Part shown: one piece after another, positions 9,334 through 32,181 of the stretch
How positions within the stretch are numbered: the stretch's first letter is position 1
How the letters are laid out: the number at the start of each line of letters is the position of its first letter
Source of the DNA: Anaerolineales bacterium
Lineage (GTDB): Bacteria; Chloroflexota; Anaerolineae; Anaerolineales; UBA4823
NCBI GenBank assembly: GCA_016932955.1
Contig: JAFGBV010000184.1
Coordinates: forward strand, 1 to 32,777
Direction: 5' to 3'
Length of the DNA stretch: 32,777 nt
The notes under the pieces: model-generated
The model's database searches: none
What the model was told of the DNA's origin: nothing
What the model saw: only the letters and a program-made list of their open reading frames with translations
Position numbers and translations under genes: made by a program

Positions 9334-10539
9334 ATGCTAAATAGATTGATTACTTGTATTCTATTGTTGCCTGTTTGGTTATCATCTGGTTGGTCATCTT
9401 CCTCGGCTTCAGATCAAGCAGTGGTCTATGCAGTGTTGTTTTACTCACCCAACTGCGGTCACTGCCACCTTGTGATTACCGAAGCGTTACCCCCCCTGTT
9501 CGAGAAGTACAGTGAGCAGTTGTACATCGTAGGCGTGGATATTTCCCAGGCCGGAGGCCAGGCTTTATTTATGGCTGCATTGGACCATTTTGGCCTGGAG
9601 AGCGGCGGCGTGCCATTTTTAGTGGTCGGAGATACCTACCTGGTCGGCTCACGAGATATCCCAGAGCAATTCCCTGGCTTGATCGATCAATACCTGGCTC
9701 AGGGCGGCGTGGATTGGCCAGCCATCCCCGGCCTGGCTGAAGCGTTGCAGGCCCCGCAGCCGACCGAGGCATCTACAACACCCACCTCCCCGCCCGAGCC
9801 CACCCAAACCGCCCCTCCTCCCGCCATCCCAGATACACCCATACCTGCTATCATCGCCTCACCACCACCGACATCTCCTGTGCTGACACCCACAGCAGGG
9901 CTGATCATCACAGGCGAGTCAACCAGCAGCCCAGGGACCAATTTCGCCCGCGACCCAGGCGGAAATACAATCTCCGTTATCGTCCTGTTAGCCATGCTCC
10001 TTACGCTTGGCAGGGCAGTCGTCGTTTTTCTACGATCAACCGCTGCCAACCCGATTGGATCATTGGATTGGCTGGTGCCTGTGCTGTGCGTGGTGGGCAT
10101 AGGTGTAGCTGGCTACCTGGCATATGTTGAGACCGCCCATGTAGAGGCTGTCTGCGGTCCGGTGGGCGATTGTAACACCGTCCAGCAGAGCGAATACGCC
10201 CAGCTGTTCGGAATTTTACCCATTGGCACCTTAGGCGTGGTCGGTTATGTTTTGATTATCCTCTCCTGGCTGGCGAAACGGTTGGCCAACCGGCGACTGG
10301 CAGCTTATGGCGCCTTCGCAATGTTCGGCATGACAACCTTTGGCCTGCTGTTCTCAATCTACCTGACCTTCCTTGAGCCGTTTGTCATCGGCGCCACCTG
10401 CGCCTGGTGCCTGACCTCGGCTGTTATCATGACTGCCTTGTTCTGGCTCAGCCTGTTGCCCGGCAAAGCAGCTTTATCTTATATTCTGAATGGAGAAAAT
10501 TATGCCTACAATCGATCAAGTTCTCAACGCGCTCTCTAA
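9334..10539 (+). CDS. Thioredoxin-VKOR fusion, disulfide-forming membrane protein
   Basis: 401 aa. A signal-like N-terminus (residues 1-26) leads to a thioredoxin-like domain with C41-G-H-C44. A Pro/Thr-rich linker (about 145-205) connects to a hydrophobic vitamin K epoxide reductase domain with the loop Cys pair (CGPVGDC) and the quinone-proximal CAWC motif. VKOR proteins oxidise periplasmic thiols and pass electrons to quinone. The frame is open upstream, but ATG 9334 gives a clean signal peptide 1 nt after trmO. In the better-known bacterial fusions thioredoxin follows VKOR; here the order is reversed. It could serve heme c or other Cys-rich exported proteins encoded downstream. Confidence 0.9.
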   Translation: MLNRLITCILLLPVWLSSGWSSSSASDQAVVYAVLFYSPNCGHCHLVITEALPPLFEKYSEQLYIVGVDISQAGGQALFMAALDHFGLESGGVPFLVVGDTYLVGSRDIPEQFPGLIDQYLAQGGVDWPAIPGLAEALQAPQPTEASTTPTSPPEPTQTAPPPAIPDTPIPAIIASPPPTSPVLTPTAGLIITGESTSSPGTNFARDPGGNTISVIVLLAMLLTLGRAVVVFLRSTAANPIGSLDWLVPVLCVVGIGVAGYLAYVETAHVEAVCGPVGDCNTVQQSEYAQLFGILPIGTLGVVGYVLIILSWLAKRLANRRLAAYGAFAMFGMTTFGLLFSIYLTFLEPFVIGATCAWCLTSAVIMTALFWLSLLPGKAALSYILNGENYAYNRSSSQRAL

Positions 10540-11560
10540 AGTCAACGATCCCGAGCTGCACCGCAGCCTGACGGATCTGAAAATGGTGCGCAATGTGCAG
10601 GTGAGTGAGCACACCGTGGAGGTAACCATCGCACTCACCATTCCCAACTGCCCACTCAAAGCACAGATCGAATCCGATGTGCGTGCTGCCATCACCGCTC
10701 TGCCAGAAGTGGAAGAGGTGGTGGTTCACATGACTTCCATGACCGATGAAGAGCGCAAAGCGATCCTAGGCGAGCCGCAAGCAGGCAGTGCCGAGGCCTA
10801 CAATCGTATTCAACGCGTGGTGGCAGTGATGAGCGGCAAGGGCGGCGTGGGCAAATCGCTCGTCACCAGCCTGCTGGCTGTTGCCCTGGCCCAATCCGGC
10901 TACCGCGTGGGAGTGCTAGATGCGGATATCACCGGCCCCAGCATTCCCAAATTATTTGGACTGCGCGGCCCTTTGGAGGGCGGCCCGGTGGGGATATATC
11001 CGCTCACCAGCGCCGCGGGGATCAAGGTGATGTCGATCAACCTGGTGCTTAATGACGAAGCCCAGCCTGTAGTGTGGCGCGGCCCCTTGATTGGCAAAGC
11101 CATCACCCAGCTATGGGGCGATGTGATGTGGGGCGATCTGGATTACCTGCTGGTAGACCTGCCCCCTGGCACCTCCGACGCCTCACTCACCACAATGCAA
11201 TCCCTGCCCCTGAATGGGATCATCATCGTCACCACGCCACAAAGCCTGGCTTCATTAATAGTGCGCAAATCAGTGCACATGGCGCAGCTTGTGGGTGTGC
11301 CGGTGGTGGGCATCGTAGAGAACATGGCATTTTTCAAATGCCCGGATACCGGCAAGCAGCACCAGATCTTTGGCCCCAGCCACACTTATGAAGTAGCCCA
11401 AGCCGCAGGCGCGCCGGTGTTGGCGCAGTTGCCGATCAATCCGCTGGTGACCAGCCTGTGCGATGCCGGCAAGGTGGAGGCCGTGACGTTAGCAGAGACC
11501 CCAGCGCTACTGGAGGCTTTCCTACAGGTGATTCCGGCGAAAGCCACGCCTCCTGGTTGA
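10502..11560 (+). CDS. mrp: Mrp/ApbC-type Fe-S cluster carrier ATPase
   Basis: 352 aa. Residues 1-80 are a MIP18 domain. Residues 105-345 are an Mrp/NBP35 ATPase with GKGGVGKS at 112-119, ITGPSIPKLFGL and DLPPGTSDASL. Cytosolic carriers of this family deliver [4Fe-4S] clusters. The usual CxxC near the C-terminus appears as CPDTG, with only one Cys. An in-frame ATG also occurs at 10490, but GGAG at 10492-10495 favours 10502. The start overlaps the VKOR gene by 38 nt. It is followed by MoeA, so it probably helps mature the Mo/Fe-S enzymes of the locus. Confidence 0.92.
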   Translation: MPTIDQVLNALSKVNDPELHRSLTDLKMVRNVQVSEHTVEVTIALTIPNCPLKAQIESDVRAAITALPEVEEVVVHMTSMTDEERKAILGEPQAGSAEAYNRIQRVVAVMSGKGGVGKSLVTSLLAVALAQSGYRVGVLDADITGPSIPKLFGLRGPLEGGPVGIYPLTSAAGIKVMSINLVLNDEAQPVVWRGPLIGKAITQLWGDVMWGDLDYLLVDLPPGTSDASLTTMQSLPLNGIIIVTTPQSLASLIVRKSVHMAQLVGVPVVGIVENMAFFKCPDTGKQHQIFGPSHTYEVAQAAGAPVLAQLPINPLVTSLCDAGKVEAVTLAETPALLEAFLQVIPAKATPPG

Positions 11561-11571
11561 TAGAGAAATAG

Positions 11572-12777
11572 GTGATCTCTTTTGATCATGCTTACCAGCT
11601 AACGCTGGAACACATTCACCCCCTCCCGCCAGAAACTGTGGGGTTGCTGGCCGCGGCTGGGCGCATCGCCGCCCAAGATTTCCTGGCAAAGGTAGATGTT
11701 CCCTCCCTGGATGTTTCCTTGAAGGATGGATATGCTATCCTGTCAACGGATATTTGCAATGCCAGCCCCACATCGCCAGTGAACTTAACCCTGGCTGGAA
11801 ACCTCGCTGCCGGTGACGCATGGGAAGGCCTTGTACACCCAAGCCAGGCAGTACGCATCTTAAGCGGAGCGCCGCTTCCGCAAGGTGCAGATGCCGTTGT
11901 GGCAGAGGAATTCACCCAGCTGCTGCCAGATGGTCTGCGCGTCTTAAACCACGCCGAACCTGGGCGCAATGTTCTGCGCCGGGGTGCAGATATCCAGGCC
12001 GGTCAACGGGTCGTTTCAGCCAGGCAAAAGTTTCATCCAACAGTCATTGGCCTCCTGGCTGCTGCGGGATACCAGGAGGTGCAGGTTATCAGACGCCCCC
12101 GCGTGGCAATTATCGCCACAGGGGATGAGGTGCTGGCGCCTGGCCAACCCATCATCCCAGGCAAACTATACGCCAGCAACTTGTTCACCTTAGCAGCCTG
12201 GTGCCAACGCTTTGGGTTTGAGGCTGAGACGTTCGTGCTCCCCGACCATGCAGACACCATCCGCAGGGTCCTGCTAAAATGCCTGGAGCAGTCTGACGTG
12301 GTGCTCACCAGCGGTGGCGCCTGGCAAGGCGAGCGCGACCTGGTGGTGCAGATCATGGATGCACTTGGCTGGCGTAAAATCTATCACCGGGTTCGGATGG
12401 GCCCAGGGAAAGCAATCGGCTTTGGGTTATACCAGGGTAAGCCGGTCTTCTGCCTGCCCGGCGGGCCGCCATCCAACCATATGGCTTTTCTCCAGCTTGC
12501 TCTCCCCGGGATGCAAAGACTGGCAGGTGAGCAAAAACCAGGCCTGCCCCACCTGCACGCTATCATGGCAGAAACAGTGTCTGGTCAGGTGGATTGGACG
12601 CAGTTTATCCACGGACAGTTGGTAGAAGAAAGCCAGCACCTGCTTTTTCAACCCCTGCGCTATCCGAGCCGGCTTCAGGAAATGGCGCATACAGATGCAA
12701 TCGTAAGAATTCCAGAAGGCACCGGGGAGATCTCTGCAAACAGCACGGTCATGGTGCAGGTGTTGGCAAACCAATAA
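11572..12777 (+). CDS. moeA: Divergent MoeA-like molybdopterin molybdotransferase
   Basis: 401 aa from GTG. MoeA inserts molybdate into molybdopterin-AMP. Domain order is that of MoeA: an N-terminal linker domain, an MPT-binding domain with IATGDEVLAPGQPI, TSGGAWQGERD and FCLPGGPPSNH, and a C-terminal beta domain. Several hallmark positions differ from classic MoeA: DVSLKDGYA replaces the usual DNSAMDGYA, and LPGGPPS replaces LPGNPVS. It may be a paralogue specialised for a particular enzyme or metal (Mo versus W). It lies 11 nt after mrp and ends the maturation block. Confidence 0.88.
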   Translation: MISFDHAYQLTLEHIHPLPPETVGLLAAAGRIAAQDFLAKVDVPSLDVSLKDGYAILSTDICNASPTSPVNLTLAGNLAAGDAWEGLVHPSQAVRILSGAPLPQGADAVVAEEFTQLLPDGLRVLNHAEPGRNVLRRGADIQAGQRVVSARQKFHPTVIGLLAAAGYQEVQVIRRPRVAIIATGDEVLAPGQPIIPGKLYASNLFTLAAWCQRFGFEAETFVLPDHADTIRRVLLKCLEQSDVVLTSGGAWQGERDLVVQIMDALGWRKIYHRVRMGPGKAIGFGLYQGKPVFCLPGGPPSNHMAFLQLALPGMQRLAGEQKPGLPHLHAIMAETVSGQVDWTQFIHGQLVEESQHLLFQPLRYPSRLQEMAHTDAIVRIPEGTGEISANSTVMVQVLANQ

Positions 12778-13058: not shown

Positions 13059-13152
13059 GTTATGTTAGTTTACCTGAAAACTTGCTCAACATTTGGAGCA
13101 GGGAGTGCACACAAAACCCAACAACTTTTGCGTGCTCCCGGAGGAGGCATCG

Positions 13153-13965
13153 ATGCAGCGTAGGAACATTATTTTCATGATCGTTGGCGCCGGCATCTTT
13201 CTGGTGGTAGCAAGCGGCTTCTGGCTGGCAACAGCCACACCAGCCAGCGCCCAGTGCGGCTCGCAAGCATCATCGTGCAAGAACTGCCACGAGGTGCAGG
13301 GAGAGATGTCGGTCAATAACGACGGTACCGCATGGCACACCTCGCACGCCTTTGGCGATTTCTGCTATATCTGTCATGCTGGCAATAACCAGGCTACAGA
13401 TAAAGCAGAGGCGCATACCGGCATGCTACCACCACTCTCGGATGTAAAGGCTTCTTGTATACAGTGCCATCCAGATGATCTGCAGGAACGCGCTCAAGTA
13501 TATGCAACCGCACTCGGCGTAGAAATCGGGGCTGAAGACACCGCACCAGCCAGCGATGATAGCCCTGCAGGATCCGAGCAGCCCGCTGCCGTTATTGCAG
13601 CGCCACCGGTAACCGAGATCAACCTTGATGACCCCAACTTGATTGACTACGTTCAGCGCTATGATGAGATTGTCTTGGGCAAAAAGAAGGTCAACTGGGG
13701 CAACATCATTTTGCTGGGAGTGATCGGCTTGGTGGTCGTGGGCGGAGGTGGGCTTGTAATCAAGAATGAGAAGTGGCTGGATTTCTCTGCCCTGGATAAA
13801 TATCCCGCAGATGTATTAGCCATGCTGCCAGCCATTACCAGCCTAAACCCACGCACTCGCAAGGCGCTCCACAAAGCATTGAAAAACCCTCCTGAGCTGG
13901 AGAAAACGCTGGGGCTGATCAACACAACAGAACACGATCAAAAGACTGGGGAGAAAACGCAATGA
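13153..13965 (+). CDS. Membrane-anchored triheme cytochrome c
   Basis: 270 aa. Residues 5-33 form a signal or anchor helix. Three heme c motifs follow: CKNCH 42-46, CYICH 71-75 and CIQCH 102-106, with extra His at 62, 65 and 88 as possible distal ligands. A Pro/Ala-rich spacer leads to a second hydrophobic helix (about 183-203) and a cytosolic tail of some 65 residues. ATG 13153 has GGAGG (13142-13146) at good spacing; an in-frame TTG at 13093 is less likely. It overlaps the first YeeE half by 4 nt (ATGA). It probably exchanges electrons with a periplasmic substrate or partner; the unusual tail may contact a cytosolic protein. Confidence 0.9.
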   Translation: MQRRNIIFMIVGAGIFLVVASGFWLATATPASAQCGSQASSCKNCHEVQGEMSVNNDGTAWHTSHAFGDFCYICHAGNNQATDKAEAHTGMLPPLSDVKASCIQCHPDDLQERAQVYATALGVEIGAEDTAPASDDSPAGSEQPAAVIAAPPVTEINLDDPNLIDYVQRYDEIVLGKKKVNWGNIILLGVIGLVVVGGGGLVIKNEKWLDFSALDKYPADVLAMLPAITSLNPRTRKALHKALKNPPELEKTLGLINTTEHDQKTGEKTQ

Positions 13966-14507
13966 AAGCGATCTTGAATTACATTCGGAAAGAAACCTGG
14001 TCGCCCTACGTGGCTGGAATATTTCTGGGGCTGGTCGGCATCCTGGCTGTCTGGCTGAGTAATAATCTGCTTGGGGCATCGGGTGCGTTCGAGAACCTGG
14101 CCGGCATGCTGGGCAAGGCCGTGGCGCCCGACACCTTCGACAACCTCTATTTCAACTTCATCATGCCGCCCGGCATCACCTATGGCGTCATCATGGCTGT
14201 CGGTTTATTCTTTGGCGGTTTGGTCGGCGCAGCTACCAGCGGCACGTTGAAGTGGGGCAAGAAAGATGCCGCCAACAGCGACGCTCAATGGCGCCGAACT
14301 TTTGGCCCGCAAGTTTGGAAACGCTGGTTGCTGGCTTTTGTCGGCGCAATCATCCTGGAGTATGCCGCCGGGATTGCTGGCGGGTGCACCAGCGGCTTGG
14401 CAATTTCAGGCGGCATGCTGCTCGCGCCAGCGGCTTTCCTGTTCATTGCCGGGATGTTCGCCTCTGGCATTGTCACCGCCCTGATTATCTATCGCAGGAG
14501 GTACTAA
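13962..14507 (+). CDS. YeeE/YedE-family transporter, first half protein
   Basis: 181 aa with four or five hydrophobic helices and the conserved GGCTSGLAISGG Cys motif (about residues 143-154), as in the sulfur-transport DUF395 family (YeeE/YedE; TsuA imports thiosulfate through Cys relays). It is half the size of a full-length YeeE such as the one at 24260-25297. Its partner half starts 1 nt after its stop and carries the predicted selenocysteine. The start overlaps the triheme cytochrome by ATGA, implying translational coupling. Confidence 0.88.
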   Translation: MKAILNYIRKETWSPYVAGIFLGLVGILAVWLSNNLLGASGAFENLAGMLGKAVAPDTFDNLYFNFIMPPGITYGVIMAVGLFFGGLVGAATSGTLKWGKKDAANSDAQWRRTFGPQVWKRWLLAFVGAIILEYAAGIAGGCTSGLAISGGMLLAPAAFLFIAGMFASGIVTALIIYRRRY

Positions 14508-14508
14508 A

Positions 14509-15060
14509 ATGGCTGATTCAATCGCAGCATTGTTCCTGGGCTTCTTCTTCGGCTTTGCGCTCAACAAAGCCGGGTTGACCAAATACCACAAGATCGTCAA
14601 TGTTTTCCGCTTCACCGACATGGCAGTGCTCAAATTCATGATGACCGCCCTGGTCGTTTCCATGAGCGGGCTCTACATCCTGCGCGGCCTTGGCTTAATC
14701 ACCTTCCCCAACGTGCCCGCCACTTATATCGTTGGCAACCTGATCGGCGGGCTGATCTTTGGCATCGGTATGGCCCTCACCGGTTACTGACCCGGCACCT
14801 GCATCGCCGGGTCCGGCGAAGGAAAAATTGACTACATTGTCCCTGGTTTGCTGGGTTTTCTGACGGGCGCGATCCTCTATGGCCTCACCTATGAGCAGGT
14901 TTTTCCGCAAATCTCGAAACTGGCCAATTACGGCAGCGTTGTCATACCTGATATCTGGAATCTCAATCCCTACTTGACTGCGCTGGCATTTGCCCTGATC
15001 TCGCTGCTGCTGTTCTACCTGATCGATCGCGCCGGTTTGCAGCGCAAAGAAAAAGAATAG
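14509..15060 (+). CDS. YeeE/YedE-family transporter half with predicted selenocysteine (UGA 14788-14790)
   Basis: 183 aa if UGA at 14788-14790 (residue 94) is read as selenocysteine. Upstream residues 1-93 end in GIGMALTGY. In-frame downstream residues resume with PGTCIAGSGEGKIDYI and two more hydrophobic helices up to TAG at 15058. The family motif here is GYCPGT, so the UGA replaces the conserved transport Cys exactly. A hairpin with a GGUC loop follows 19 nt after the UGA. Reading the UGA as a stop would give a 93-residue stump and leave a homologous 3' half untranslated. Alternatives are a nonsense mutation or a sequencing error; the SECIS-like hairpin and intact downstream frame argue against both. 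Substrate could be thiosulfate, another sulfur species or a selenium compound. Confidence 0.87.
14788..14819 (+). promoter_or_regulatory. Bacterial SECIS element with UGA selenocysteine codon
   Basis: The UGA (14788-14790) is followed after 19 nt by an apical loop GGUC (14810-14813). It is closed by a perfect 6-bp stem, TCGCCG (14804-14809) with CGGCGA (14814-14819). In E. coli fdhF the GGUC-type loop lies 18 nt after the UGA. The loop starts with G and contains GU, as SelB recognition requires. The sequence also allows an exclusive 8-bp alternative stem (14789-14796 with 14806-14813). Confidence 0.8.
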
Positions 15061-15106
15061 CAAGAGTCCGCAATCGACCTATATAACCAGCATCGTGGAG
15101 ATAACC

Positions 15107-17335
15107 ATGTCAAAGCAATTATCACGACGCGACTTCCTAAAACTGAGCGGGCTGGCTGCTGGCGCCATAGCCGCTACAAAGTACATCCCCCCGCCAGTAG
15201 CGCGGGCAGCGCACCAGAATGGGCATATCAATGCTGCCGGCGATGGCTACATCCCCAGCATGTGTGAAATGTGCGTCTGGCGCTGCGGCCTGCTTGCCAA
15301 GGTCAAAGATGGGCGCGTGGTCAAGTTAGACGGCAACCCCGATCATCCTCACTCGCGCGGGAATCTCTGCACCCGCGGGCAATCTGGACTGATGAACACT
15401 TATGACCCAGACCGCGTACTGACCCCGCTCATTCGGGTAGGCGCACGCGGCGCAGGCTTGTTCCGCAAAGCTTCGTGGGACGAAGCCCTCGACTTGACCG
15501 CCAGCAAGATGCTCGAGATCAAAAACCGCTACGGCCCGGAGGCGATGGTCTTTTCATCCACCCACAACCTGAGCCAGGTGCAGTTCGAGAATCTACTTTA
15601 TGCTTTCGGGTCACCCAATTATGGTACACAGCGCAGCCTGTGCTTCAATGCCATGATCACCGCCTTTTTACTCACCTATGGCATTGAAGAACCTGAGCGC
15701 AATTATGACAATGTCGAGTTCATCCTGTTGGTCGGCCGCAACCTGATGGAAGCGATTTCCACATCCGAAACATCGCTGCTGTCGCAAGCGTTGGATCGGG
15801 GCGCCAAATTGGTGTATCTGGATCCTCGTTTCACAAAGACCGCCTCCAAATCTGCCGAGTGGATCCCCATTCGGCCAGGCACAGACTCAGCCTTCTTATT
15901 AGCGATGATCCATGTCATTGTAATGAATGATTTGGCTGATTGCGAGTTCGTGAAGCAATACGTGATTGGCTGCGATGATATTCAGGATGCCATGCGCAGC
16001 TATACGCCAGAGTGGGCTTCGCAGAAAACCGGCGTGCCGGCTGCTACCATCGAACGGGTGGCGCGTGAATACGCCGCCGCCAAGCACAATGCCCTGGCGC
16101 ACCCCGGTTGGCGCACCTCCAATTTTGTCAATTCCTTCCAAACCGAACGGGCTATTGCAACCCTCAACGCACTGAGCGGCAACGTGCTCACCCCCGGCGG
16201 CTGCCTTTCGGCTGATGTCGCCGGAGAGAGCGCCGGCTTGGGTGCGCCGTCCCAGCCGCCTTACCCTCGTGTTTCTGCGCTGCGTCTGGATGGCACACCC
16301 TGGAAATATCCGCTTGTTCCGCTTAAGTTAGGTGTTTTTCAGGAACTGCGGGATGCGATCATCACCGGCGAGCCATACCAGGCGCACGGCTGGTTTATCT
16401 CCCGGCAGAACCCCATCCTGGCTTTACCAGACCGCCAAAGAACCCTGCAAGCGTTTGGTAAAATGGATTTTATCGCCACAGTGGATATCATCTTGAATGA
16501 CACAGCCTGGTACTCAGATGTGGTTCTGCCCGAAGCATCTTACCTGGAACGCTATGATCCCCTGCTGACTGTGGGCGGAAAAGCCTTCATCCGCCAGCCG
16601 GTGATTGAGCCGCAGGGTGAAGCCAAATCTGCCCTATGGATTTACAAACAGCTCGGAGAACGCCTGGGTTTGGGGGATTATTTTCAATATGACGATGAAG
16701 AAGATTACATTCGCCAACAAATTGCCCCCCTCGGCGCCAACCTGCAGGAGTTAAAATCCAAGGGTTACATTGAAACACAACCAGCCGAAGAGAGCAAAGA
16801 AATTGTTTTCAATACACCCTCTGGCAAAATAGAGATCTATTCAGAAACATTGGCCAATGCTGGCTTCTCACCCTGGCCCACCTGGGAAGAGCCCCCCCAA
16901 CCCCCGCCAGATCAATTTTACTTGCTCACCGGGAAGGTAGCGCAGGCTACGCAGTTTGGCACACAGAATAACCAGCTACTGCACAAATACTCAGACGAGC
17001 CGCGCTTGTGGATGAACAATGCAGTTGCGCAGTCCCGCGGGTTGGTGGATGGGGATTGGGTCGAAGTGACCTCCCCCGTGGGAAAAGTTCATATCCCCTT
17101 GCATGTCACCAAAGGCATCCGGCCAGACTGTGTTTACATGACGCCTGGCTATGGTCATCTATCGAAAGGGCTAACAACCGCCTATGGCATTGGGGCCAGC
17201 GACTCCGTCTTGCATGTCACCTATACGGATCCCATCAGCGGCGGGCAGGCATTGAGTGAGACTTTCGTATCGATCAAGAAAATCCCAGGAACCCAGCCCG
17301 CCCCGTCGCCCAAACCGCTCTATGCAGGAGAATAG
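15107..17335 (+). CDS. Psr/Phs-type molybdopterin oxidoreductase catalytic subunit, TAT-exported
   Basis: 742 aa. TAT motif RRDFLKL at residues 7-13 is followed by an Ala-rich helix. The N-terminal [4Fe-4S] motif CEMC-x3-C...C (about 47-87) is typical of the DMSO-reductase superfamily. Cys179 in SLCFNA is the probable Mo ligand, as in polysulfide/thiosulfate reductases (PsrA/PhsA). The C-terminal dinucleotide-binding domain contains GKVAQATQFGTQNN. ATG 15107 follows GGAG; an upstream GTG at 15095 is less likely. With the B and C subunits it should form a quinone-linked complex on the outer face of the membrane. The substrate (thiosulfate, polysulfide, tetrathionate, or an oxyanion such as selenate or arsenate) cannot be fixed from sequence. 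Confidence 0.9.
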   Translation: MSKQLSRRDFLKLSGLAAGAIAATKYIPPPVARAAHQNGHINAAGDGYIPSMCEMCVWRCGLLAKVKDGRVVKLDGNPDHPHSRGNLCTRGQSGLMNTYDPDRVLTPLIRVGARGAGLFRKASWDEALDLTASKMLEIKNRYGPEAMVFSSTHNLSQVQFENLLYAFGSPNYGTQRSLCFNAMITAFLLTYGIEEPERNYDNVEFILLVGRNLMEAISTSETSLLSQALDRGAKLVYLDPRFTKTASKSAEWIPIRPGTDSAFLLAMIHVIVMNDLADCEFVKQYVIGCDDIQDAMRSYTPEWASQKTGVPAATIERVAREYAAAKHNALAHPGWRTSNFVNSFQTERAIATLNALSGNVLTPGGCLSADVAGESAGLGAPSQPPYPRVSALRLDGTPWKYPLVPLKLGVFQELRDAIITGEPYQAHGWFISRQNPILALPDRQRTLQAFGKMDFIATVDIILNDTAWYSDVVLPEASYLERYDPLLTVGGKAFIRQPVIEPQGEAKSALWIYKQLGERLGLGDYFQYDDEEDYIRQQIAPLGANLQELKSKGYIETQPAEESKEIVFNTPSGKIEIYSETLANAGFSPWPTWEEPPQPPPDQFYLLTGKVAQATQFGTQNNQLLHKYSDEPRLWMNNAVAQSRGLVDGDWVEVTSPVGKVHIPLHVTKGIRPDCVYMTPGYGHLSKGLTTAYGIGASDSVLHVTYTDPISGGQALSETFVSIKKIPGTQPAPSPKPLYAGE

Positions 17336-17338
17336 CCG

Positions 17339-18118
17339 ATGGATCATAAATATGGTTTCTTAATTGACGCCTCACGCTGTATCGACTGCCGCGCCTGTCT
17401 TGTGGCATGCAGCGTGGAAAATAACGTACCCATGAAGAACACCCGCATCTGGATCCACGACACCGGCATCATGGGAGAATATCCCCATCTGCAGCGCTAT
17501 TCTGCTCCGTTTCACTGCATGCACTGTATAGATCCATCTTGTGTATCCGCCTGCACAGTCGGCGCCCTGCAGCAAAGTTCAGACGGTATTGTCATCTATG
17601 ATCAAGATCGTTGTATTGGCTGCCGTTACTGCATGTACGCCTGTCCCTTCGAGGTCCCCAACTTCCAATGGGCTGAGCGCATGGCTTTGATCATCAAATG
17701 CGACCTGTGCATCTCTCGCCTGGATGAGGGCAAGCAACCGGCGTGTGCGGCCACCTGCCCCACCCGCGCGATTCAATTTGGCAAACGGGATGAAATGCTG
17801 AACATGGCTTATCGGCGCATCGAGGAAAATCCACAGCGCTACATTAGCCATGTGTATGGCGAGCACGAAAACGGCGGCACCTCCACCTTTTACATCTCTC
17901 CCGTTCCCTTCGAGCAGCTTGGCTTCCCAACCACAGAACAAACCGAGTCCCCGGCGCATTTCAACCGCCTGGTCACCCACGGCACACCCACTGTCGCCGC
18001 AGGCGTGGCGATTGGCATGGCGGCCGTTTACCTGGCCATTAAGCGCCAGGCGCAAGACAATGCCGCAACAGAGGCAGAACATGCCCAAACTTTGCATGAG
18101 GCGAGAGAGGAGGATTAA
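17339..18118 (+). CDS. Four-cluster ferredoxin subunit (PsrB/HybA-like) with C-terminal anchor
   Basis: 259 aa. Four Cys groups are visible: CIDCRACLVAC, CMHCIDPSCVSAC, CIGCRYCMYAC and CDLC...CAATC. These match the electron-transfer B subunit of Mo-bisPGD enzymes. After residue 210 a hydrophobic helix (TVAAGVAIGMAAVYLAI) anchors it, as in HybA or FdnH. No TAT signal, so it probably rides out with the A subunit. It starts 3 nt after the catalytic gene and ends 3 nt before the NrfD-like gene. Confidence 0.93.
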   Translation: MDHKYGFLIDASRCIDCRACLVACSVENNVPMKNTRIWIHDTGIMGEYPHLQRYSAPFHCMHCIDPSCVSACTVGALQQSSDGIVIYDQDRCIGCRYCMYACPFEVPNFQWAERMALIIKCDLCISRLDEGKQPACAATCPTRAIQFGKRDEMLNMAYRRIEENPQRYISHVYGEHENGGTSTFYISPVPFEQLGFPTTEQTESPAHFNRLVTHGTPTVAAGVAIGMAAVYLAIKRQAQDNAATEAEHAQTLHEAREED

Positions 18119-18121
18119 GCC

Positions 18122-19312
18122 ATGCTGGCGATAATCATCAAGGAATTGCGCAGCTTACCACGCTTCACTTTAGTTCTTGCCTTGCTAACAGCGTTTGGGC
18201 TGGGTGCAGGGTTTTACCGCCTGTATGCCGGGCTGGGCGACACCACCAATATGAGCAAGGTTTTCCCCTGGGGCATCTGGATTAGTTTTGATCTGACAAC
18301 AGTGGCGCTTTCCGGCGGTGCCTTCACCCTCGCCGCACTGGTATACATCTTCCACATGCACGACCTCCACGCTGCAACGCGGCCCACCGTGCTGTTTGGG
18401 CTGCTGGGGTACGGCTCTGTGCTGGTAATCCTTTTCTTCGACCTGGGACGCTGGGACCGCTTCTGGCATTTCCTGGTTTACCCCAATATCAACTCAGCAT
18501 TATTTGAGGTCAGTTGGTGTATTGCCATTTACTCAACCATTCTCTTCTACGAATTTAGCCCCGTCATTGTCGAGCGCTTTGGCAATCTCAAATTACTGAA
18601 CCTCATCAAAAAGCTCACCGTTCCCATGGTAATTGCCGGGGTTACACTCTCATCGATGCACCAGTCCTCACTAGGAACCCTCTTCATCGTCATGTCGCCG
18701 CGCTTGCATCCCCTTTGGTATTCCATGCTCATGCCGGTGTTCTTCCTGATCTCATCCATCCCGGCAGGTATCTCCCTGATCATCATCGGCTCGATCGTCA
18801 GCGATTACCTCTTCGGTCATTCGCTCAGCCAAAGGGTGATCGAAAAGTTGGGCTGGCTGGCGCCCTGGGTGCTGGGGTTCTACCTCGCCCTGAAACTTGG
18901 CGAGCTCTTAGTGGTCGAAGAGCTGGAGTTACTCTTTCACAGCGGCATTTATAGTGTACTTTTTGGAGCTGAGCTGGTGATTGGAGTGATCATCCCGATC
19001 ATCTTGTTCTCTATCCCAAAAGTGCGCTGGAGCCGCGCTGGTTCATTGGTGGCTGCGCTCTTTGTGGCTGCTGGCACCGTACTGAATCGCTTTAATGCAA
19101 CCTGGTTTTCCATCAAACCGTTGAACGGTGTCATCTACATCCCTACCTGGATAGAAGTAGCCCTCCTGGTGGGAGTTTTCTGCGGCGTGCTATTGATTTT
19201 CACCCTCATTTCCCACTACTTCCCGGTGTTTGTCGAAACCATGCCAACAAAAAAGCATCAACCAGCCGCCACCGCCGTGTTGCAGCCTGCGAATTCTCCG
19301 ACCGGAGATTGA
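18122..19312 (+). CDS. NrfD/PsrC/HybB-like membrane quinone-interacting subunit
   Basis: 396 aa, mostly hydrophobic with about ten helices. KVFPWGIWISFDLTTVALSGGAF, FDLGRWDRFWHFL and the helix pattern match the NrfD/HybB family, which binds quinone next to the B subunit. HybB-like length. It overlaps the next gene by 4 nt (TTGA), so the Mo complex and the cytochrome b are translationally coupled. Confidence 0.92.
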   Translation: MLAIIIKELRSLPRFTLVLALLTAFGLGAGFYRLYAGLGDTTNMSKVFPWGIWISFDLTTVALSGGAFTLAALVYIFHMHDLHAATRPTVLFGLLGYGSVLVILFFDLGRWDRFWHFLVYPNINSALFEVSWCIAIYSTILFYEFSPVIVERFGNLKLLNLIKKLTVPMVIAGVTLSSMHQSSLGTLFIVMSPRLHPLWYSMLMPVFFLISSIPAGISLIIIGSIVSDYLFGHSLSQRVIEKLGWLAPWVLGFYLALKLGELLVVEELELLFHSGIYSVLFGAELVIGVIIPIILFSIPKVRWSRAGSLVAALFVAAGTVLNRFNATWFSIKPLNGVIYIPTWIEVALLVGVFCGVLLIFTLISHYFPVFVETMPTKKHQPAATAVLQPANSPTGD

Positions 19313-20349
19313 GGTTGCGCCCCACCTTCTTCCATCACCTGCACCCCCCCACCATCCCCGCCGCGCAAGCGCGCTGGCGCTATACCCTGGGTGCCGGCGG
19401 TACAGCCGTCTTTCTTGTGCTGGTGCTGGTTGTCAGCGGCGCGCTGGAAATGTTCTTTTATATCCCCACACCCGCCGAAGCCGCACTTTCCATACAAACA
19501 CTGACCTATTCTGTGCCCTTTGGCGGGTTGCTGCGCAATATCCATTTCTGGTCAGCGCAGCTATTGCTCATCGTGAGCGCAGTGCACCTGGTGCGCGTTA
19601 TTTTTACCGGCGCCTATGCTCCGCCGCGGCGCTTCAACTACCTGCTCGGCTTGCTCCTTTTCGTCTTCGCCATCCTCTTCGATTTTTCCGGCTACATGCT
19701 GCGCTGGGACCAGGGCATCCAATGGGCGTTGGTGGTGGGAACCAACCTGATCAAGTCCATTCCCCTGCTTGGCAACGCCCTCTATCAAATCCTTGTCGGC
19801 AGCGCTCAGCCCGGCCCAGCCACGCTCATCCGCTTCTACGCCTGGCATATCTTCGGCCTCACGCTGCTGGCAGGCATTGCGCTGTTCTGGCACATCTTCC
19901 GCGTGCGCCGCGACGGCGGCATTGCAGTCCCCCCCCCAAAGATGCGCGCCGCGCCAGAACGTATTTCGCGCTCCGAGCTGCTGCGCCGCGAAGTTGCCGC
20001 CATGCTGTGGGTGGGCGCAGCCCTGCTTCTACTTGCCGCTTTTGCACCCGCACCCATTGCCCCCGTCATGACCGAGGTCACCGCACAGGTCAAGGATGCC
20101 CAGGCGCCCTGGTTCTTCTTATGGGTGCAGCAAATGCTCAAGTGGGGCGACCCCTTCTTTTGGGGCGTCTTTGTCCCGCTCATTCTCCTGTTGCTCCTCG
20201 CCCTGATTCCCTATGCCTTACCCCAACCCGCAGCAGGCGAGCTGGGCCGCTGGTTTCCCAAATCAAACCGCCTGGCGCAGATCACGTTGGCTGTGATCGC
20301 AGCCCTGGTGCTCTTATTCACGCTCCTGGCGCTTGGATCCCCGGCGTAA
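19309..20349 (+). CDS. Diheme cytochrome b6/subunit IV-like protein
   Basis: 346 aa from TTG (GGAG upstream). Two His pairs with the spacing of cytochrome b6 are visible: H and H+14 in NIHFWSAQLLLIVSAVH, and H and H+15 in WHIFGLTLLAGIALFWH, preceded by TLIRFY, so both b hemes can be bound. The stretch between them (FDFSGYMLRWDQGIQWALVVG...IPLLGNAL) also follows cytochrome b6. The C-terminal part resembles subunit IV, but PEWY at the Qo site reads APWF. A cytochrome b attached to a Mo-oxidoreductase operon and to a Rieske gene implies a composite quinol-handling complex. Confidence 0.92.
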   Translation: MRLRPTFFHHLHPPTIPAAQARWRYTLGAGGTAVFLVLVLVVSGALEMFFYIPTPAEAALSIQTLTYSVPFGGLLRNIHFWSAQLLLIVSAVHLVRVIFTGAYAPPRRFNYLLGLLLFVFAILFDFSGYMLRWDQGIQWALVVGTNLIKSIPLLGNALYQILVGSAQPGPATLIRFYAWHIFGLTLLAGIALFWHIFRVRRDGGIAVPPPKMRAAPERISRSELLRREVAAMLWVGAALLLLAAFAPAPIAPVMTEVTAQVKDAQAPWFFLWVQQMLKWGDPFFWGVFVPLILLLLLALIPYALPQPAAGELGRWFPKSNRLAQITLAVIAALVLLFTLLALGSPA

Positions 20350-20350
20350 G

Positions 20351-21619
20351 ATGAACCGTATCCTTCTCCCTGCCGCTGCAGCACTCCTCATCACCTCTGG
20401 CCTGGTTTGGTGGTTGGCAGGGCGCGCCGTTAAGCCCATCACCCTCATCCCCACCCTGACCGGGCAGGTTGAATACTGCCTCACCTGCCACGCCGACCTG
20501 CCGGAGATCAGCCCCTCCCACCCGCTCGAAGCATTTGGCTGCGTGCTCTGCCACGGCGGCGAGCGCCTCGCGCTGGATGCCGACCTGGCCCACAGCAGCA
20601 TGCGCGGCGGCGCAAATCCATCAGATCTGATGGTGGTCGAGCAATCCTGCGGTGGAGAGGCCTGTCATAGCGGCGCAGCCGCTGAACAACGTGACCATAT
20701 CCAACGTGTGATGACCAGCATCCAAACCACCTATACTGGCGCCATCACCAACATACGCTACACCTTCGGAGCGCAGGCTGATCAATCCCCACTTTTCGGG
20801 ACTTTTGCAGTGACCGATACAACCTTACCCTCCCACACTGGCATCCTCAGCCTGGATGCCTTTGACCCCCAGTCAGAAACCAACCCCTTCCTGCACGCCT
20901 TTGGCCAAAACTGCCTCACCTGTCATATCAACGCCCAACCAGCCGCAGGAAAACAATACCAGCGCCTCACAGGCTGCGCAGCCTGCCACTCGCCGATGCT
21001 CACCCCCAGCGGAGAGCAAAGTGAAGATGGCAAACAACACATCCTGACCACAGCCATTTCTTATGCCCAGTGCAACACCTGCCACAACCGCGGCAATTAC
21101 GACCTGCGCAGCATGACCTTCGTCGAACGTTCCGACCCGCAACGCACCCGCCTCGAAAGCTACTACCAGCCCATTGCCCAATTCACCTTGTGCGAATACA
21201 CCCTGGACTGCGTTGACTGCCACACCCGCACCGAAGCCATGGGCAATGGCGACATCCATGCCACCGAGGCCGATATCCAGTACATCCAATGCAAAACCTG
21301 CCACGGCACCTTGAACGAGCTGCCCCTGACACACACCATCACAGATCCAGAGGAGATCGCCTTCCGATTGGCTTTGTTAAACCCGCTGACAACGCTGCAG
21401 GTTGGTGATACCATCATCGTCAGCCAGCAAGGCGAACCTCTCTGGAATACCCGCCTCTTACCAGATGGCACCTACGCGCTGATCGGCAAAGCCACTCACC
21501 AGCAGTTCATCTTTCGCCCGGTACTGGGCAGCGGCTGCCTGCAAGACCCCGCCCAGCAAGCATCACACTACTGCCACGAATGCCATGCCGTGGATCGCAC
21601 CGCAATCGAGGAGCATTGA
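20351..21619 (+). CDS. Multiheme cytochrome c (eight CXXCH plus one CX4CH)
   Basis: 422 aa. Residues 1-24 are a signal/anchor. Heme motifs: CLTCH 43-47, CVLCH 64-68, then CX4CH (CGGEACH, 100-106), followed by CLTCH, CAACH, CNTCH, CVDCH, CKTCH and CHECH. That gives eight canonical sites and one extended site of the cytochrome c3 type. ATG 20351 lies 1 nt after the cytochrome b stop; an in-frame TTG at 20333 is inside that gene. The role is probably to carry electrons between the cytochrome b/Rieske unit and a periplasmic acceptor or donor. Close relationship to a named octaheme enzyme is not evident. Confidence 0.92.
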   Translation: MNRILLPAAAALLITSGLVWWLAGRAVKPITLIPTLTGQVEYCLTCHADLPEISPSHPLEAFGCVLCHGGERLALDADLAHSSMRGGANPSDLMVVEQSCGGEACHSGAAAEQRDHIQRVMTSIQTTYTGAITNIRYTFGAQADQSPLFGTFAVTDTTLPSHTGILSLDAFDPQSETNPFLHAFGQNCLTCHINAQPAAGKQYQRLTGCAACHSPMLTPSGEQSEDGKQHILTTAISYAQCNTCHNRGNYDLRSMTFVERSDPQRTRLESYYQPIAQFTLCEYTLDCVDCHTRTEAMGNGDIHATEADIQYIQCKTCHGTLNELPLTHTITDPEEIAFRLALLNPLTTLQVGDTIIVSQQGEPLWNTRLLPDGTYALIGKATHQQFIFRPVLGSGCLQDPAQQASHYCHECHAVDRTAIEEH

Positions 21620-21620
21620 G

Positions 21621-22037
21621 TTGGCCCAATTATCCCGCCGCGATTTTGTAAAGCTCGCCACACAGGCATTACTCACTGCCAGTGGACTGCTTGGGCTGAA
21701 CGCATTCATTCGCCTCGTGTCTGCTCAAACCTCAGCACCTCCACCAACGCAATTTGATCTTGGCCCAGCCTCCAGCTACCCGCTTGGCTCTCGTACGGTC
21801 ATACCAGATGTTCCCGCAATCCTCTTGCATACTGAGGCGGGGTTTTCTGCCCTAAGCCTGGTTTGCACGCACCTGGGATGCACGCTAGACCAAACCTCAG
21901 ATGGGTTTACCTGCCCCTGCCATGGCTCTCAGTTCGGGGCAGATGGGTTTCTCCAGCGCGGCCCGGCAAAACAACCCCTGGCTCCCTTACCCATCGAGCA
22001 GAATGCTGAGGGTCATCTGATTTTGCGCATTGATTGA
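21621..22037 (+). CDS. TAT-exported Rieske [2Fe-2S] protein
   Basis: 138 aa from TTG at 21621 with GAGGAG upstream (21608-21613). The N-terminus has TAT motif RRDFVKL followed by a hydrophobic helix, as in bc-type Rieske proteins. The cluster motifs CTHLGC and CPCHGSQF bind a [2Fe-2S] centre with two Cys and two His each side. The start lies 1 nt after the multiheme stop. It makes the operon resemble a bc/b6f complex appended to a Mo enzyme. An alternative upstream reading frame start at 21585 is in a poor context. Confidence 0.92.
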   Translation: MAQLSRRDFVKLATQALLTASGLLGLNAFIRLVSAQTSAPPPTQFDLGPASSYPLGSRTVIPDVPAILLHTEAGFSALSLVCTHLGCTLDQTSDGFTCPCHGSQFGADGFLQRGPAKQPLAPLPIEQNAEGHLILRID

Positions 22038-23875: not shown

Positions 23876-24238
23876 TTAGAACACGTACGTCATTGCAGCC
23901 CCTTCAGCCTCCATCAGGAACGGCGGGGCTTTTTCGATGAGGATGCGGGGATCGCGCAGGTCTTCCGGCTTGACACCCTTGTTTTCCAGCGCCAGCTCGC
24001 AAAGCACCACTCTCGCACCCAGGTCAAGGATATCATTGATCAGCTTGAGAGGATCGGGCATGCCTTTGGGCACACCCAGTTTCTCAATCTCGCCCTTGAG
24101 CGTCCACTTGGTGCCGGCCGGGCAGAAGAAAATATGTACTTCGTAATCCAGGGCCAGGCCCGAAGATGCAAAGATCAGTGTAGGCATGATGTTCTTGGCC
24201 TCATCGCCATTGCATACAACAACCATTTTTTGAGTCAT
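23876..24238 (-). CDS. DsrE-family sulfur-relay protein (last gene of operon)
   Basis: 120 aa. The fold begins MVVVCNGDEAKN with an Ala-rich central region, and VVLCELALENKG holds the conserved Cys. It matches DsrE/DsrE2-like proteins, which carry persulfide sulfur. It is a paralogue of the 25627-25998 product; both end in a MEAEGA/FEAEGA block. It follows a full-length YeeE, giving a YeeE-plus-sulfur-carrier set. AAAGGAGA lies before its ATG. Confidence 0.88.
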   Translation of the reverse strand: MTQKMVVVCNGDEAKNIMPTLIFASSGLALDYEVHIFFCPAGTKWTLKGEIEKLGVPKGMPDPLKLINDILDLGARVVLCELALENKGVKPEDLRDPRILIEKAPPFLMEAEGAAMTYVF

Positions 24239-24259
24239 ATTCTTTCTCCTTTGTGCTTC

Positions 24260-25297
24260 TTATGCATTTTTGCGAACAAAAATTAAATATGCTGCCAGCC
24301 AGGCGCCAAGAACAATAGATATCGCGCCTACCAGCGAGCCAATTCCCAGTTGTGGCAACCCGCTCAAGATGTGGGTCACATTACAGCCAGCCGAGGTGAC
24401 CGCACCAAAGCCCATGAGCAAGCCGCCCCCAAAAGTCTGAGCGATCAGCCCCCAACCCGGCCAGCGGATCTTGAATTCGCTGGCAATCAGAGCGGCAATC
24501 AAGGCGCCCACGATAATGCCTAGAACCAGCCAGGAGTCCCATCCAATCTTCGATTCTGGCACCGCCAGGATAACCTTGACAATCCCAATCCATCCGGAAG
24601 TGATCGCAAGCGGGTAACTGCGCCCTGCTAACGATGAAAGGTAGAAAGCCAGCATATTGATCAGGCCAATCACTACTCCCGTTGCCAGCCAGCCCCAACC
24701 CTTCTTGAAGATGCGCTTGCTCAGGGGCAGGTTGCTTTTGGCTTCCGCATCTTCCTTGTTCCTCTGCGCCAGTACGTACCAGATGACAGCCGCAATGATT
24801 ACGACAGCAAAGGCAACAACCCAATGTGGCAAACCCAGGATATTTGCCAGGGTCGGATTCGCTTCACCGACCATGACTTTTGTATTGGTTTGCAGAGCAT
24901 CTTTGATCGGCTTCAAAAAACCCATCGCAGTCAGATACGCGCTGAGCGTCAGGCCAATCAGTGCAGATAATGCACTCACCATCCCCTCACCAACCCGGTA
25001 AGTGACGCCGCTGGCGCATCCGCCTGCCAAGACCATGCCAATGCCAAAGATGAAGCCTCCAACCAGATTCGCCCCCCAGAAGAATGGCGTGGGGCTGATC
25101 TTGATCAATCCCGCCAGAGCCATCGCCGCAAAGCCAAACATTCCCACCAGAATGGCCATAAGAACCGACTTCAACAGTGTATTGTCTTGAAGCAAGATAG
25201 CATCTCGGATGGCGGAATTCATACAGAAGCGCCCGCGCTGTAGCGCAAAGCCGAACAAAATTCCTACAAGTAAACCGCTCAATATTGCGATAGTCAT
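24260..25297 (-). CDS. Full-length YeeE/YedE-family sulfur transporter
   Basis: 345 aa with about nine helices in two homologous halves. Conserved Cys motifs are GRFCMN near the start, GGCASGVTYRVGEG near residue 95, and SAGCNVTH at about 310. This is the family of E. coli TsuA/YeeE, which imports thiosulfate (YedE has been linked to selenium metabolism). Unlike the + strand split pair it uses Cys, not Sec. The genes around it (TusA upstream, DsrE on both sides) form the known YeeE-TusA-DsrE module. Confidence 0.92.
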   Translation of the reverse strand: MTIAILSGLLVGILFGFALQRGRFCMNSAIRDAILLQDNTLLKSVLMAILVGMFGFAAMALAGLIKISPTPFFWGANLVGGFIFGIGMVLAGGCASGVTYRVGEGMVSALSALIGLTLSAYLTAMGFLKPIKDALQTNTKVMVGEANPTLANILGLPHWVVAFAVVIIAAVIWYVLAQRNKEDAEAKSNLPLSKRIFKKGWGWLATGVVIGLINMLAFYLSSLAGRSYPLAITSGWIGIVKVILAVPESKIGWDSWLVLGIIVGALIAALIASEFKIRWPGWGLIAQTFGGGLLMGFGAVTSAGCNVTHILSGLPQLGIGSLVGAISIVLGAWLAAYLIFVRKNA

Positions 25298-25329
25298 TGT
25301 TATTCTCCTGGTGATACGAGGGGAAATGG

Positions 25330-25581
25330 TTATTTGAGGCCGTGTGCTTCAATCAGCATACGATGGTTAGGGCCGCCAGTCTGCTCAACGGATATCAACT
25401 TGTGGCCGCTCTTCTTCAAGTTCCGTGGAATGCGCTCAACCGAAAGCGGGTAATCCAATAGAACTTCCAGGATCTCTCCTTTTTTCATTTTCTTGAGCGT
25501 GGTCATCGTATCCATATCTGGGTAGGGACAAATCTTCCCGCACACATCCAATGTTTTTGTGGGAACAATATTTTCGCTCAT
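25330..25581 (-). CDS. TusA-family sulfur carrier, CPYP type
   Basis: 83 aa. The CPYP motif (residues 18-21) replaces the usual CPxP variants and carries the persulfide Cys. The C-terminus follows the TusA/SirA fold (IPRNLKKSGHKLISVEQTGG). AAGGAGAAAAT precedes the ATG. It is 32 nt from the YeeE gene and 45 nt from the DsrE gene. A second TusA (CPGP) is encoded at 31896-32147. Confidence 0.93.
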   Translation of the reverse strand: MSENIVPTKTLDVCGKICPYPDMDTMTTLKKMKKGEILEVLLDYPLSVERIPRNLKKSGHKLISVEQTGGPNHRMLIEAHGLK

Positions 25582-25626
25582 GACAAGATTTTCTCCTTAG
25601 AGTAAGATTTTTCGGTGAACAGCCAA

Positions 25627-25998
25627 CTAATAACTGAACACCATTTTTGCGCCTTCAGCTTCGAAAAGGAAAGTGGATGCCATCATCACTTCCACGCCTT
25701 CTACCAGGTCTTCAGCCTTCATATCCCAAACAGATAAGCCAAGTTCGCACAGGATAATGCGACCATCCAACACCTGGATGGCATCCAGCAGTTCCACGGG
25801 GTTTGGTTGGCCTTTCAGGCCCTGGAATTTCTCCAGTTCGCCTTTTGCCAATATCTTCGCACCGCCCGGTTGAACAAAGAACAACACCTGATCGCCCGTC
25901 GACGCAATTGCTGCCCCCATCACAAGAGCTGCCATAACACTCTGGGGGTCATCGTGGTTCAAAATCACTGCAATTTTTGCTAAGCTTTCGTCAGTCAA
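25627..25998 (-). CDS. DsrE-family sulfur-relay protein (first copy of operon)
   Basis: 123 aa. The opening KIAVILNHDDPQSVMAALVMGAAI and the Cys in IILCELGLSVWDMK match DsrE-like proteins. The ATG has GAGGAGG upstream. It starts after a 119-nt gap (25999-26117) that may hold its own promoter. Probably accepts sulfur from the neighbouring TusA. Confidence 0.88.
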   Translation of the reverse strand: MTDESLAKIAVILNHDDPQSVMAALVMGAAIASTGDQVLFFVQPGGAKILAKGELEKFQGLKGQPNPVELLDAIQVLDGRIILCELGLSVWDMKAEDLVEGVEVMMASTFLFEAEGAKMVFSY

Positions 25999-26117
25999 AG
26001 TAAGCCTCCTCGCATGATATCTGGGGTGGAATGCCTTTTACTGGCAATCATCATTCAACAGCGGCAGCTTCTGCTTGCCGTGTTGTTATAACGCTGGTAT
26101 TCGCAGGTATTCTCCAA

Positions 26118-26576
26118 TCAGTCAGTAATGCTAATAATCTGAGCACACTTGCTGATCAGACGTTCGCCAATTACCTCCGCCATTTTTTTCATAAAGTAGT
26201 AGCCATAAGAAGGGTTGTTGTCGAACAGGATGCGCAACTTCTCGCCATCAAAGACAATCAGGTGTGCATCCTGCGCAGCGTAAGCGCCCATCTTATAAAT
26301 ATGGGGAGCAACAATGGAAGACCATCCCACAATCTCCCCTTTGGCGAGAGGCTCTAGTTCCTGAACTTTCTGATCACCTTTACTCCCCATATTCATCGTG
26401 AGAACGACGGATCCATCCAGCACCAGAAACAAGTTTTTGGCTACCTCGCCTTCAAAGAACAATTGTTGACCAGCCTTGACTTCCTTTTTTTCTGCAAGCA
26501 TGGCAATTTGCTTGAGCGTTTCTGCGTCCTGGTTAAAAAAGAGCTGGTAGAACCTGAGAGTTTCTGGGGAAATCAT
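26118..26576 (-). CDS. Cyclic-nucleotide-binding-domain protein without DNA-binding domain
   Basis: 152 aa. A Crp/FNR-type sensor barrel is clear (EVKAGQQLFFEGEVAKNLFLVLDGSVVLTM...GEIVGWSS...). The protein ends after helix C at RLISKCAQIISITD, so there is no winged helix as in CRP/FNR. AAGGAG 5 nt before ATG 26576 decides the start; the frame is open another 84 nt. It follows the QmoC-like gene and may bind a nucleotide or act on the complex rather than DNA. FNR-type Cys clusters are absent. Confidence 0.88.
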   Translation of the reverse strand: MISPETLRFYQLFFNQDAETLKQIAMLAEKKEVKAGQQLFFEGEVAKNLFLVLDGSVVLTMNMGSKGDQKVQELEPLAKGEIVGWSSIVAPHIYKMGAYAAQDAHLIVFDGEKLRILFDNNPSYGYYFMKKMAEVIGERLISKCAQIISITD

Positions 26577-26622
26577 ATGTACTCCTTTCTTCACCGCACT
26601 GAAGGATTGGGAAAACCCGCAA

Positions 26623-31427: not shown

Positions 31428-31449
31428 AGCCTTGCTCCTTTCATCTCAT

Positions 31450-31887: not shown

Positions 31888-31895
31888 TGTTCAAT

Positions 31896-32147: not shown

Positions 32148-32181
32148 CGTATATTCTCCTTTTGTTTGTTCAAATATGGAT

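Follow-up and report, generated by a model that had tools for sequence, protein, structure and literature searches.

A predicted selenocysteine-containing half-size YeeE/YedE protein in an Anaerolineales bacterium

The TGA-interrupted gene and its homologues

The stretch of DNA analysed here (hereafter the window) comprises 32,777 nucleotides (nt) of an Anaerolineales bacterium (contig JAFGBV010000184.1, positions 1-32,777, forward strand). It carries a half-size YeeE gene, which begins with ATG at 14509, follows AGGAGG at 14497-14502, ends with TAG at 15058-15060, and is interrupted by an in-frame TGA at codon 94 (Table 1). On the whole, the best explanation is that this gene quite probably encodes a selenoprotein, the N-terminal half (N-half, PmpB type) of a two-subunit YeeE/YedE membrane protein, in which the TGA is read as selenocysteine (Sec). 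The frame is otherwise intact, as the initial annotation had described, and both flanks of the TGA together match PF04143 with 74.9 bits (cut-off 27). That annotation had placed Sec at the conserved cysteine of a whole YeeE protein; the position holds, but the gene corresponds only to the N-half of a YeeE encoded by two genes. The invariant residues of our alignment (A1) are G80, G85, G87, G92, C/U94, and G120, and column 94, apart from TGA, contains Cys in all 52 aligned rows. A scan of the window against Rfam at gathering cut-offs gave no match, and a tRNA gene search of the window found none. Another 14 places in the window were considered as further in-frame TGA genes and rejected, their surroundings (judged by eye only) being unlike conserved protein.

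Table 1. Features of the window at and around the TGA-interrupted gene
Feature	Position	Strand	Remarks
Cytochrome c-like protein, upstream	13093..13965	+	Weak HmcA match, 20.8 bits (cut-off 400)
C-half (PmpA-like) partner	13962..14507	+	Cys142 in GGCTSG; ends with TAA at 14505-14507
Predicted Sec-containing N-half (PmpB-like) of two-gene YeeE/YedE protein	14509..15060	+	183 amino acids if TGA is read through; Sec94 and Cys98 (UxxxC)
In-frame TGA, codon 94, predicted Sec94	14788..14790	+	Only Cys or TGA at this column of alignment A1
SECIS-like hairpin	14804..14819	+	6-base-pair stem, loop GGTC
PhsA/PsrA-like molybdopterin oxidoreductase	15095..17335	+	Tat signal match
HmcB-like iron-sulfur subunit	17339..18118	+	–
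NrfD/HmcC-like membrane subunit	18122..19312	+	–
Cytochrome b	19309..20349	+	Nearest model ExtP, under cut-off
Multihaem cytochrome c	20333..21619	+	Nearest model ExtM, under cut-off
Rieske protein	21585..22037	+	–

Of the best 80 of 131 confirmed homologous loci, 28 have TGA at codon 94 and 52 have TGC or TGT. The 28 TGA loci comprise 25 Chloroflexota-type contigs, two Clostridia-type contigs (L039, L040), and one contig labelled Deltaproteobacteria (L042). A second sample comprised 396 genomes of the class to which the nearest relative belongs; 67 of them contained a match at 1e-20. Forty matches were better than 1e-39, with one internal TGA in 29 and no stop in 11; in the 32 regions retrieved from these 40, every stop seen was a TGA at column 94, and the remaining eight belong to genomes whose loci were already in the set. 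Neither TAA nor TAG was found at column 94 in the 80 loci or in this close group. A real stop in close homologues, against which the initial annotation had cautioned, did not turn up, since the close group contains no internal stop except the TGA at column 94.

For phylogenetic analysis, 86 of 121 loci were retained (E below 1e-25, weaker ones dropped), and a maximum likelihood tree was built with the Sec/Cys column masked. The exchange of Sec and Cys that the initial annotation had proposed to look for is evident in these 86 rows, with 52 TGA (the window included) and 34 Cys. Nine changes of the Sec/Cys label are needed on the tree, seven of which are forced by well-supported branches, while shuffled labels need 27. 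The pattern is more than chance, because TGA occurs at exactly column 94 in 52 of 86 rows and the close group has no other internal stop. Recoding of internal TAG or TAA in class members was also considered and rejected after checking seven such or similar rows (E above 1e-39): two are terminated at column 178, close to where the gene normally ends, and the realigned stretch of the others contains no stop. In a small Anaerolineae branch (L037:10268, L101:2296, and L107:2207), GVCAAP replaces GYCPGT around the same Cys.

Downstream of the TGA, the window and seven TGA relatives differ by nonsynonymous rates (dN) of 0.08-0.24 and synonymous rates (dS) from 0.74 to saturation, and the comparison with L022 gives no meaningful dN/dS ratio; the codons after the TGA are thus under purifying selection. 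A nonsense mutation, a decaying pseudogene, or a sequencing error at the Cys codon would be a simple origin of the TGA, which is one base away from TGC or TGT and at which gene callers end the protein. However, the same TGA recurs in the 28 of 80 loci from separate assemblies and in the 29 of 40 close matches of the second sample, the column is free of TAA and TAG, purifying selection continues downstream, and the hairpin described below is kept, so that such an origin is highly improbable.

Recoding signal and selenocysteine machinery

Downstream of the TGA lies a hairpin resembling a selenocysteine insertion sequence (SECIS), composed of a 5' arm at 14804-14809 (TCGCCG), a loop at 14810-14813 (GGTC), and a 3' arm at 14814-14819 (CGGCGA). 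The stem begins 13 nt and the loop 19 nt after the TGA; the stem, loop, and spacing first proposed for this site agree to within one base. This stem is the best fold when folding starts at 14800. We scored hairpins across 74 close loci (E below 1e-40) as an uninterrupted stem whose loop starts 13-28 nt after the codon and has G in its first two bases, with synonymous codon shuffles as the null model. The mean score was 17.5 in 51 TGA loci against 10.9 in shuffled sequences (0 of 500 shuffles as high); in 23 Cys loci it was 10.5 against 11.4 (446 of 500 as high). A stem of at least five pairs with a loop beginning GG was found in 46/51 TGA loci and 6/23 Cys loci, and the full six-pair stem in 42/51 and 3/23 (L003, L082, and L085), respectively. 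Thirty-six loci have a 3-nt loop; their first stem position is a C-G pair in 23, T-A in seven, A-T in two, and unpaired in four, and most of the other stem pairs are nearly invariant. In the Clostridia-type locus L040, the arrangement is conserved although the stem itself differs.

One locus (L085:2201-2755) has TGT at the Sec column together with an intact hairpin, and its close, nearly identical sister L086 has TGA; both genomes (G422 and G393) encode SelA and tRNA-Sec. Judging by these sequences, L085 appears to have changed from Sec to Cys recently while retaining the hairpin.

Sec machinery was searched for in 41 genomes of relatives (27 TGA, 14 Cys) and in 31 further genomes (22 TGA, 9 Cys). 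Among the 41, SelA over the cut-off was found in 25/27 TGA and 11/14 Cys genomes, SelB in 23/27 and 11/14, and tRNA-Sec of at least 60 bits in 22/27 and 9/14. This limit for tRNA-Sec is stricter than the family cut-off of 47 bits, which five of 14 control genomes, and also G035 and G039 (47-48 bits), reach; scores of 45-53 bits were taken as tRNA-Ser-like, and G038 (58 bits) falls in between. All 27 TGA genomes contain at least two of SelA, SelB, and tRNA-Sec when partial hits are counted (SelA in G009, tRNA-Sec in G007, SelB in G027). G001, the nearest relative, contains SelA, SelB, and tRNA-Sec. The machinery that the initial annotation had asked for in the genome itself is thus documented for its relatives. 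In the 31 further genomes, SelA over the cut-off occurs in 20/22 TGA and 8/9 Cys genomes. The TGA genome G337 has no SelA and a tRNA-Sec at 76 bits, the TGA genome G144 has only a SelA fragment (208 bits, under the cut-off) and no good tRNA-Sec, and the Cys genome G368 has neither SelA nor tRNA-Sec. SelA, SelB, and tRNA-Sec are all missing, by the limits used, from G035, G037, and G039, all of the Cys type. Altogether, at least one component was detected in 49/49 TGA genomes (in G144 only as a fragment), and the machinery searched for is missing from 4/23 Cys genomes versus 0/49 TGA genomes.

The column holds Cys in 115 and Trp in five (P0002, P0006, P0007, P0031, and P0090) of 120 listed database homologues, and the open TGA form in none. 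The five Trp entries raise the alternative that no Sec is involved and that an altered code or leaky readthrough inserts Trp or another residue at the TGA. However, TGA serves as the terminal stop in 15 of the 52 TGA genes of the 86-row set, the column is otherwise Cys in every aligned row, SelA, SelB, or tRNA-Sec is present, and the Trp calls are outputs of gene callers instead of protein data; we regard this alternative as very remote. The five Trp homologues are probably TGA genes called with a code in which TGA is Trp. Since ordinary gene calling ends such genes at the TGA, annotated genomes probably under-represent the Sec form.

The partner half-gene and relation to known YeeE proteins

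According to the available text of PMC11582611, PmpA and PmpB are pairs of half-size YeeE proteins encoded by adjacent genes. The window pair likewise consists of two adjacent genes for the two YeeE halves, each with one conserved relay-Cys position, and the TGA gene matches PmpB in being an N-half only, in its cysteine position at TsuA Cys91, and in its adjacent PmpA-type gene. It differs from the pair described there in that the N-half would carry Sec and in its link to a PsrA/PhsA-like complex.

In the model given in the accessible part of PMC11073785, TsuA (YeeE) hands thiosulfate along cysteines by hydrogen bonds, with three cysteines in a row spaced 8.6 and 6.7 A apart; Cys91 and Cys293 are adjacent members of this row. 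Residue 94 of the window protein aligns with TsuA Cys91, and the best Foldseek match of the N-half is 6lep, the inactive TsuA C91A mutant (probability 0.99, TM 0.68). The window protein thus shares homology and fold with TsuA (PDB 6leo, 6lep, 8j4c, 8k1r). Unlike TsuA, a single full-length chain with three relay cysteines, it has no equivalent of Cys22, which aligns with Thr24. Scores against the NCBIfam TsuA models (44.8 of 400 and 24.3 of 645 bits) are far below the cut-offs. For the C-terminal half (C-half), a PDB sequence search gave nothing, and the first BLASTP alignment of its Cys was to the N-terminal Cys motif of the full-length YeeE encoded in the window; multiple alignment and PMC11582611 place Cys142 at TsuA Cys293.

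Sec-containing YeeE/YedE proteins (PF04143) have been catalogued with the motif GUxSG (example WP_012471001.1) in the available part of PMC13188914, and the family is listed without a motif in that of PMC9312934. The question left by the initial annotation, whether a Sec-containing YeeE had been catalogued, is therefore answered for GUxSG, but the GYUPGTC motif of the window N-half is not that motif, and the window C-half has GCTSG with Cys. Common to the catalogued form and the window are PF04143 and Sec at a conserved relay-type Cys, and the GU(P/T)SG loci analysed here also have a SECIS-like hairpin; they differ in that GUxSG would fit the C-half. By its motif the catalogued form may be a C-half, but its record may also have a different architecture, because full-length YeeE proteins carry GCASG at the position of Cys91. 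No report of an N-half Sec form was found in searches on YeeE, selenocysteine, and Chloroflexi, on Anaerolineae and Chloroflexota selenoproteins, and on PmpA/PmpB, which covered mostly titles and the starts of abstracts, or in a search of PMC2398784, PMC5029168, and PMC12013277 for named terms; an earlier supplementary list containing GYUPGT may exist.

The C-half codon is readable in 50 TGA loci, and is Cys in 49 and TGA in one (L042, motif GUTSG). A further sample of 395 genomes from the phylum of the L042 genome contained 126 with a C-half match, and by our own count 42 of the listed matches, including that of L042, have one TGA. All 35 retrieved of the other 41 (L124-L158) have their TGA within GU(P/T)SG, next to an N-half with Cys, and 5/5 retrieved matches without TGA have Cys in both halves. 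Hairpins after the C-half TGA in 36 loci including L042 score 14.7 against 8.0 in shuffled sequences (0 of 300 as high). At L042:2140-3110, TGA is present in both half-genes (C-half GUTSG, N-half GFUPGTC) with a hairpin downstream of each; its N-half frame is shorter than those of its relatives, and its genome (G027) has SelA, tRNA-Sec, and a partial SelB. A TGA in G025 C10 was considered as a relay-site Sec and rejected, both relay positions being Cys (L121); the class sample around G025 comprised three genomes only.

These comparisons suggest that Sec can occupy either of the two positions matching TsuA Cys91 and Cys293, and both in L042, and indicate the GYUPGTC N-half type as a second Sec site distinct from the GUxSG C-half. 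By lineage, the C-half form belongs to one phylum and the N-half form to Anaerolineae and to two genomes of Clostridia type; L042 combines the two. That the family contains a selenoprotein was known already; new here are the N-half location, the GYUPGTC motif, the lineage, and the either-or placement.

Several points weigh against the Sec reading. Bootstrapping of the tree had not converged, and some long branches are unsure, L044, L040, L041, L042, and L108 among them. Taken alone, the window stem does not differ significantly from synonymous shuffles (p = 0.17). When the 45 nt from the TGA onwards are folded, a competing helix involving TGA-adjacent bases has the lowest energy. Support for the hairpin is taken from the comparison across loci, which uses a scoring scheme of our own and includes related, non-independent loci. 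The hairpins of five C-half-type Cys loci likewise exceed shuffles, at 9.6 against 7.6 (12 of 300 shuffles as high). Most Cys genomes have Sec machinery as well; the link of Sec to machinery is weak, and several of the genomes are close kin. Sec coding, the residue position, the paired half-genes, and the conserved neighbourhood are nonetheless all shown at the sequence level, and the Sec reading comes close to the strongest that sequence alone allows.

Gene neighbourhood and proposed function

The neighbourhood was compared in 41 close loci (L001-L040 and L046). In the same order as in the window, the upstream cytochrome c gene was found in 39, the C-half in 40, the PhsA/PsrA-like gene in 38, and the HmcB-like gene in 33; every locus without the PhsA-like gene is cut by a contig end. 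Genes for cytochrome b, cytochrome c, and the Rieske protein then follow in many of these loci, and the gene order is the same in Cys loci. The closest solved relative of the catalytic subunit is the Thermus enzyme 2vpw (455 bits), and the PhsA model scores 573.9 bits, under its cut-off of 694. The window cluster thus resembles PsrABC/PhsABC (PDB 2vpw) in its catalytic subunit and differs in the unreached PhsA cut-off and in the added cytochrome b, cytochrome c, and Rieske genes.

On the minus strand, the window contains a sulfur-handling set (23876-32487) with genes for a DsrE-like protein, a full-length YeeE (24260-25297), TusA (25330-25581), a second DsrE-like piece, a cyclic-nucleotide-binding protein, Hdr-like proteins, FlpD, a second TusA (31896-32147), and an ArsR-type regulator. 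Parts of this set recur near the half-gene pair in L001 and L014. Because of these genes and the PhsA/PsrA-like neighbour, the sequence points to a sulfur rather than a selenium compound as the substrate.

According to our proposal, the downstream hairpin would direct SelB and tRNA-Sec to decode UGA 94 as Sec. Sec94 would replace Cys91, which is the second relay cysteine in the TsuA model, with the adjacent C-half supplying Cys at the Cys293 place. The two halves may form one pore, which would pass sulfane sulfur or thiosulfate across the membrane and work with the neighbouring PsrA/PhsA-like respiratory complex. Sec is ionised at neutral pH, and the resulting selenolate donates hydrogen bonds poorly but is strongly nucleophilic and would readily attack S-S bonds. 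We therefore favour a transient Se-S bond over a TsuA-type hydrogen-bond relay, and such an intermediate could pass sulfane sulfur to or from Cys142 of the partner. More generally, and only tentatively, the family may form a two-subunit sulfur channel with two relay positions, in which Sec is placed by lineage and sulfur is handed on covalently through Se-S bonds, either into or out of a polysulfide-reductase-like respiratory complex. The published YeeE model rests on hydrogen bonds between cysteine and thiosulfate, and Sec would sit exactly at those relay positions. Together with at least nine Sec/Cys changes on the 86-locus tree, this placement implies that the chemistry of the residue matters, and natural Sec/Cys pairs such as the nearly identical L085 and L086 are available for direct comparison.

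The protein may belong to a Sec-dependent sulfur or selenium channel, and its cargo could also be a selenium compound with the Sec reading itself right. Among the neighbouring genes, the cytochromes are similar to ExtP, ExtQ, and ExtM from an operon for selenite/tellurite reduction, with all scores under the model cut-offs, and a YedE branch is linked to selenium in the available text of PMC5322559. However, the selenium-linked YedE models (TIGR04112 and NF033796) score 25.2 of 200 and 33.9 of 350 bits; because these are far below the cut-offs, the link of YedE to selenium metabolism invoked in the initial annotation gives little support. The catalytic subunit is nearest to thiosulfate/polysulfide reductase, TusA, DsrE-like, and Hdr-like genes lie within the window, and Cys forms share the gene order, which makes selenium an unlikely cargo.

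Sec94 might instead serve in redox sensing or electron transfer with the complex, as a Sec94-Cys98 switch, and not in transport. Cys98 of the UxxxC motif is present in 51/52 TGA rows but in 19/34 Cys rows, and the pair always adjoins the respiratory complex in close loci reaching that far. The homology and fold match to a transporter that needs the same residue, and the absence of Cys98 from the TGA locus L040, argue against the switch, which we consider improbable. Finally, genes for an Mrp-like Fe-S ATPase and MoeA are located upstream of the cluster (10490-12777), which fit a molybdoenzyme.
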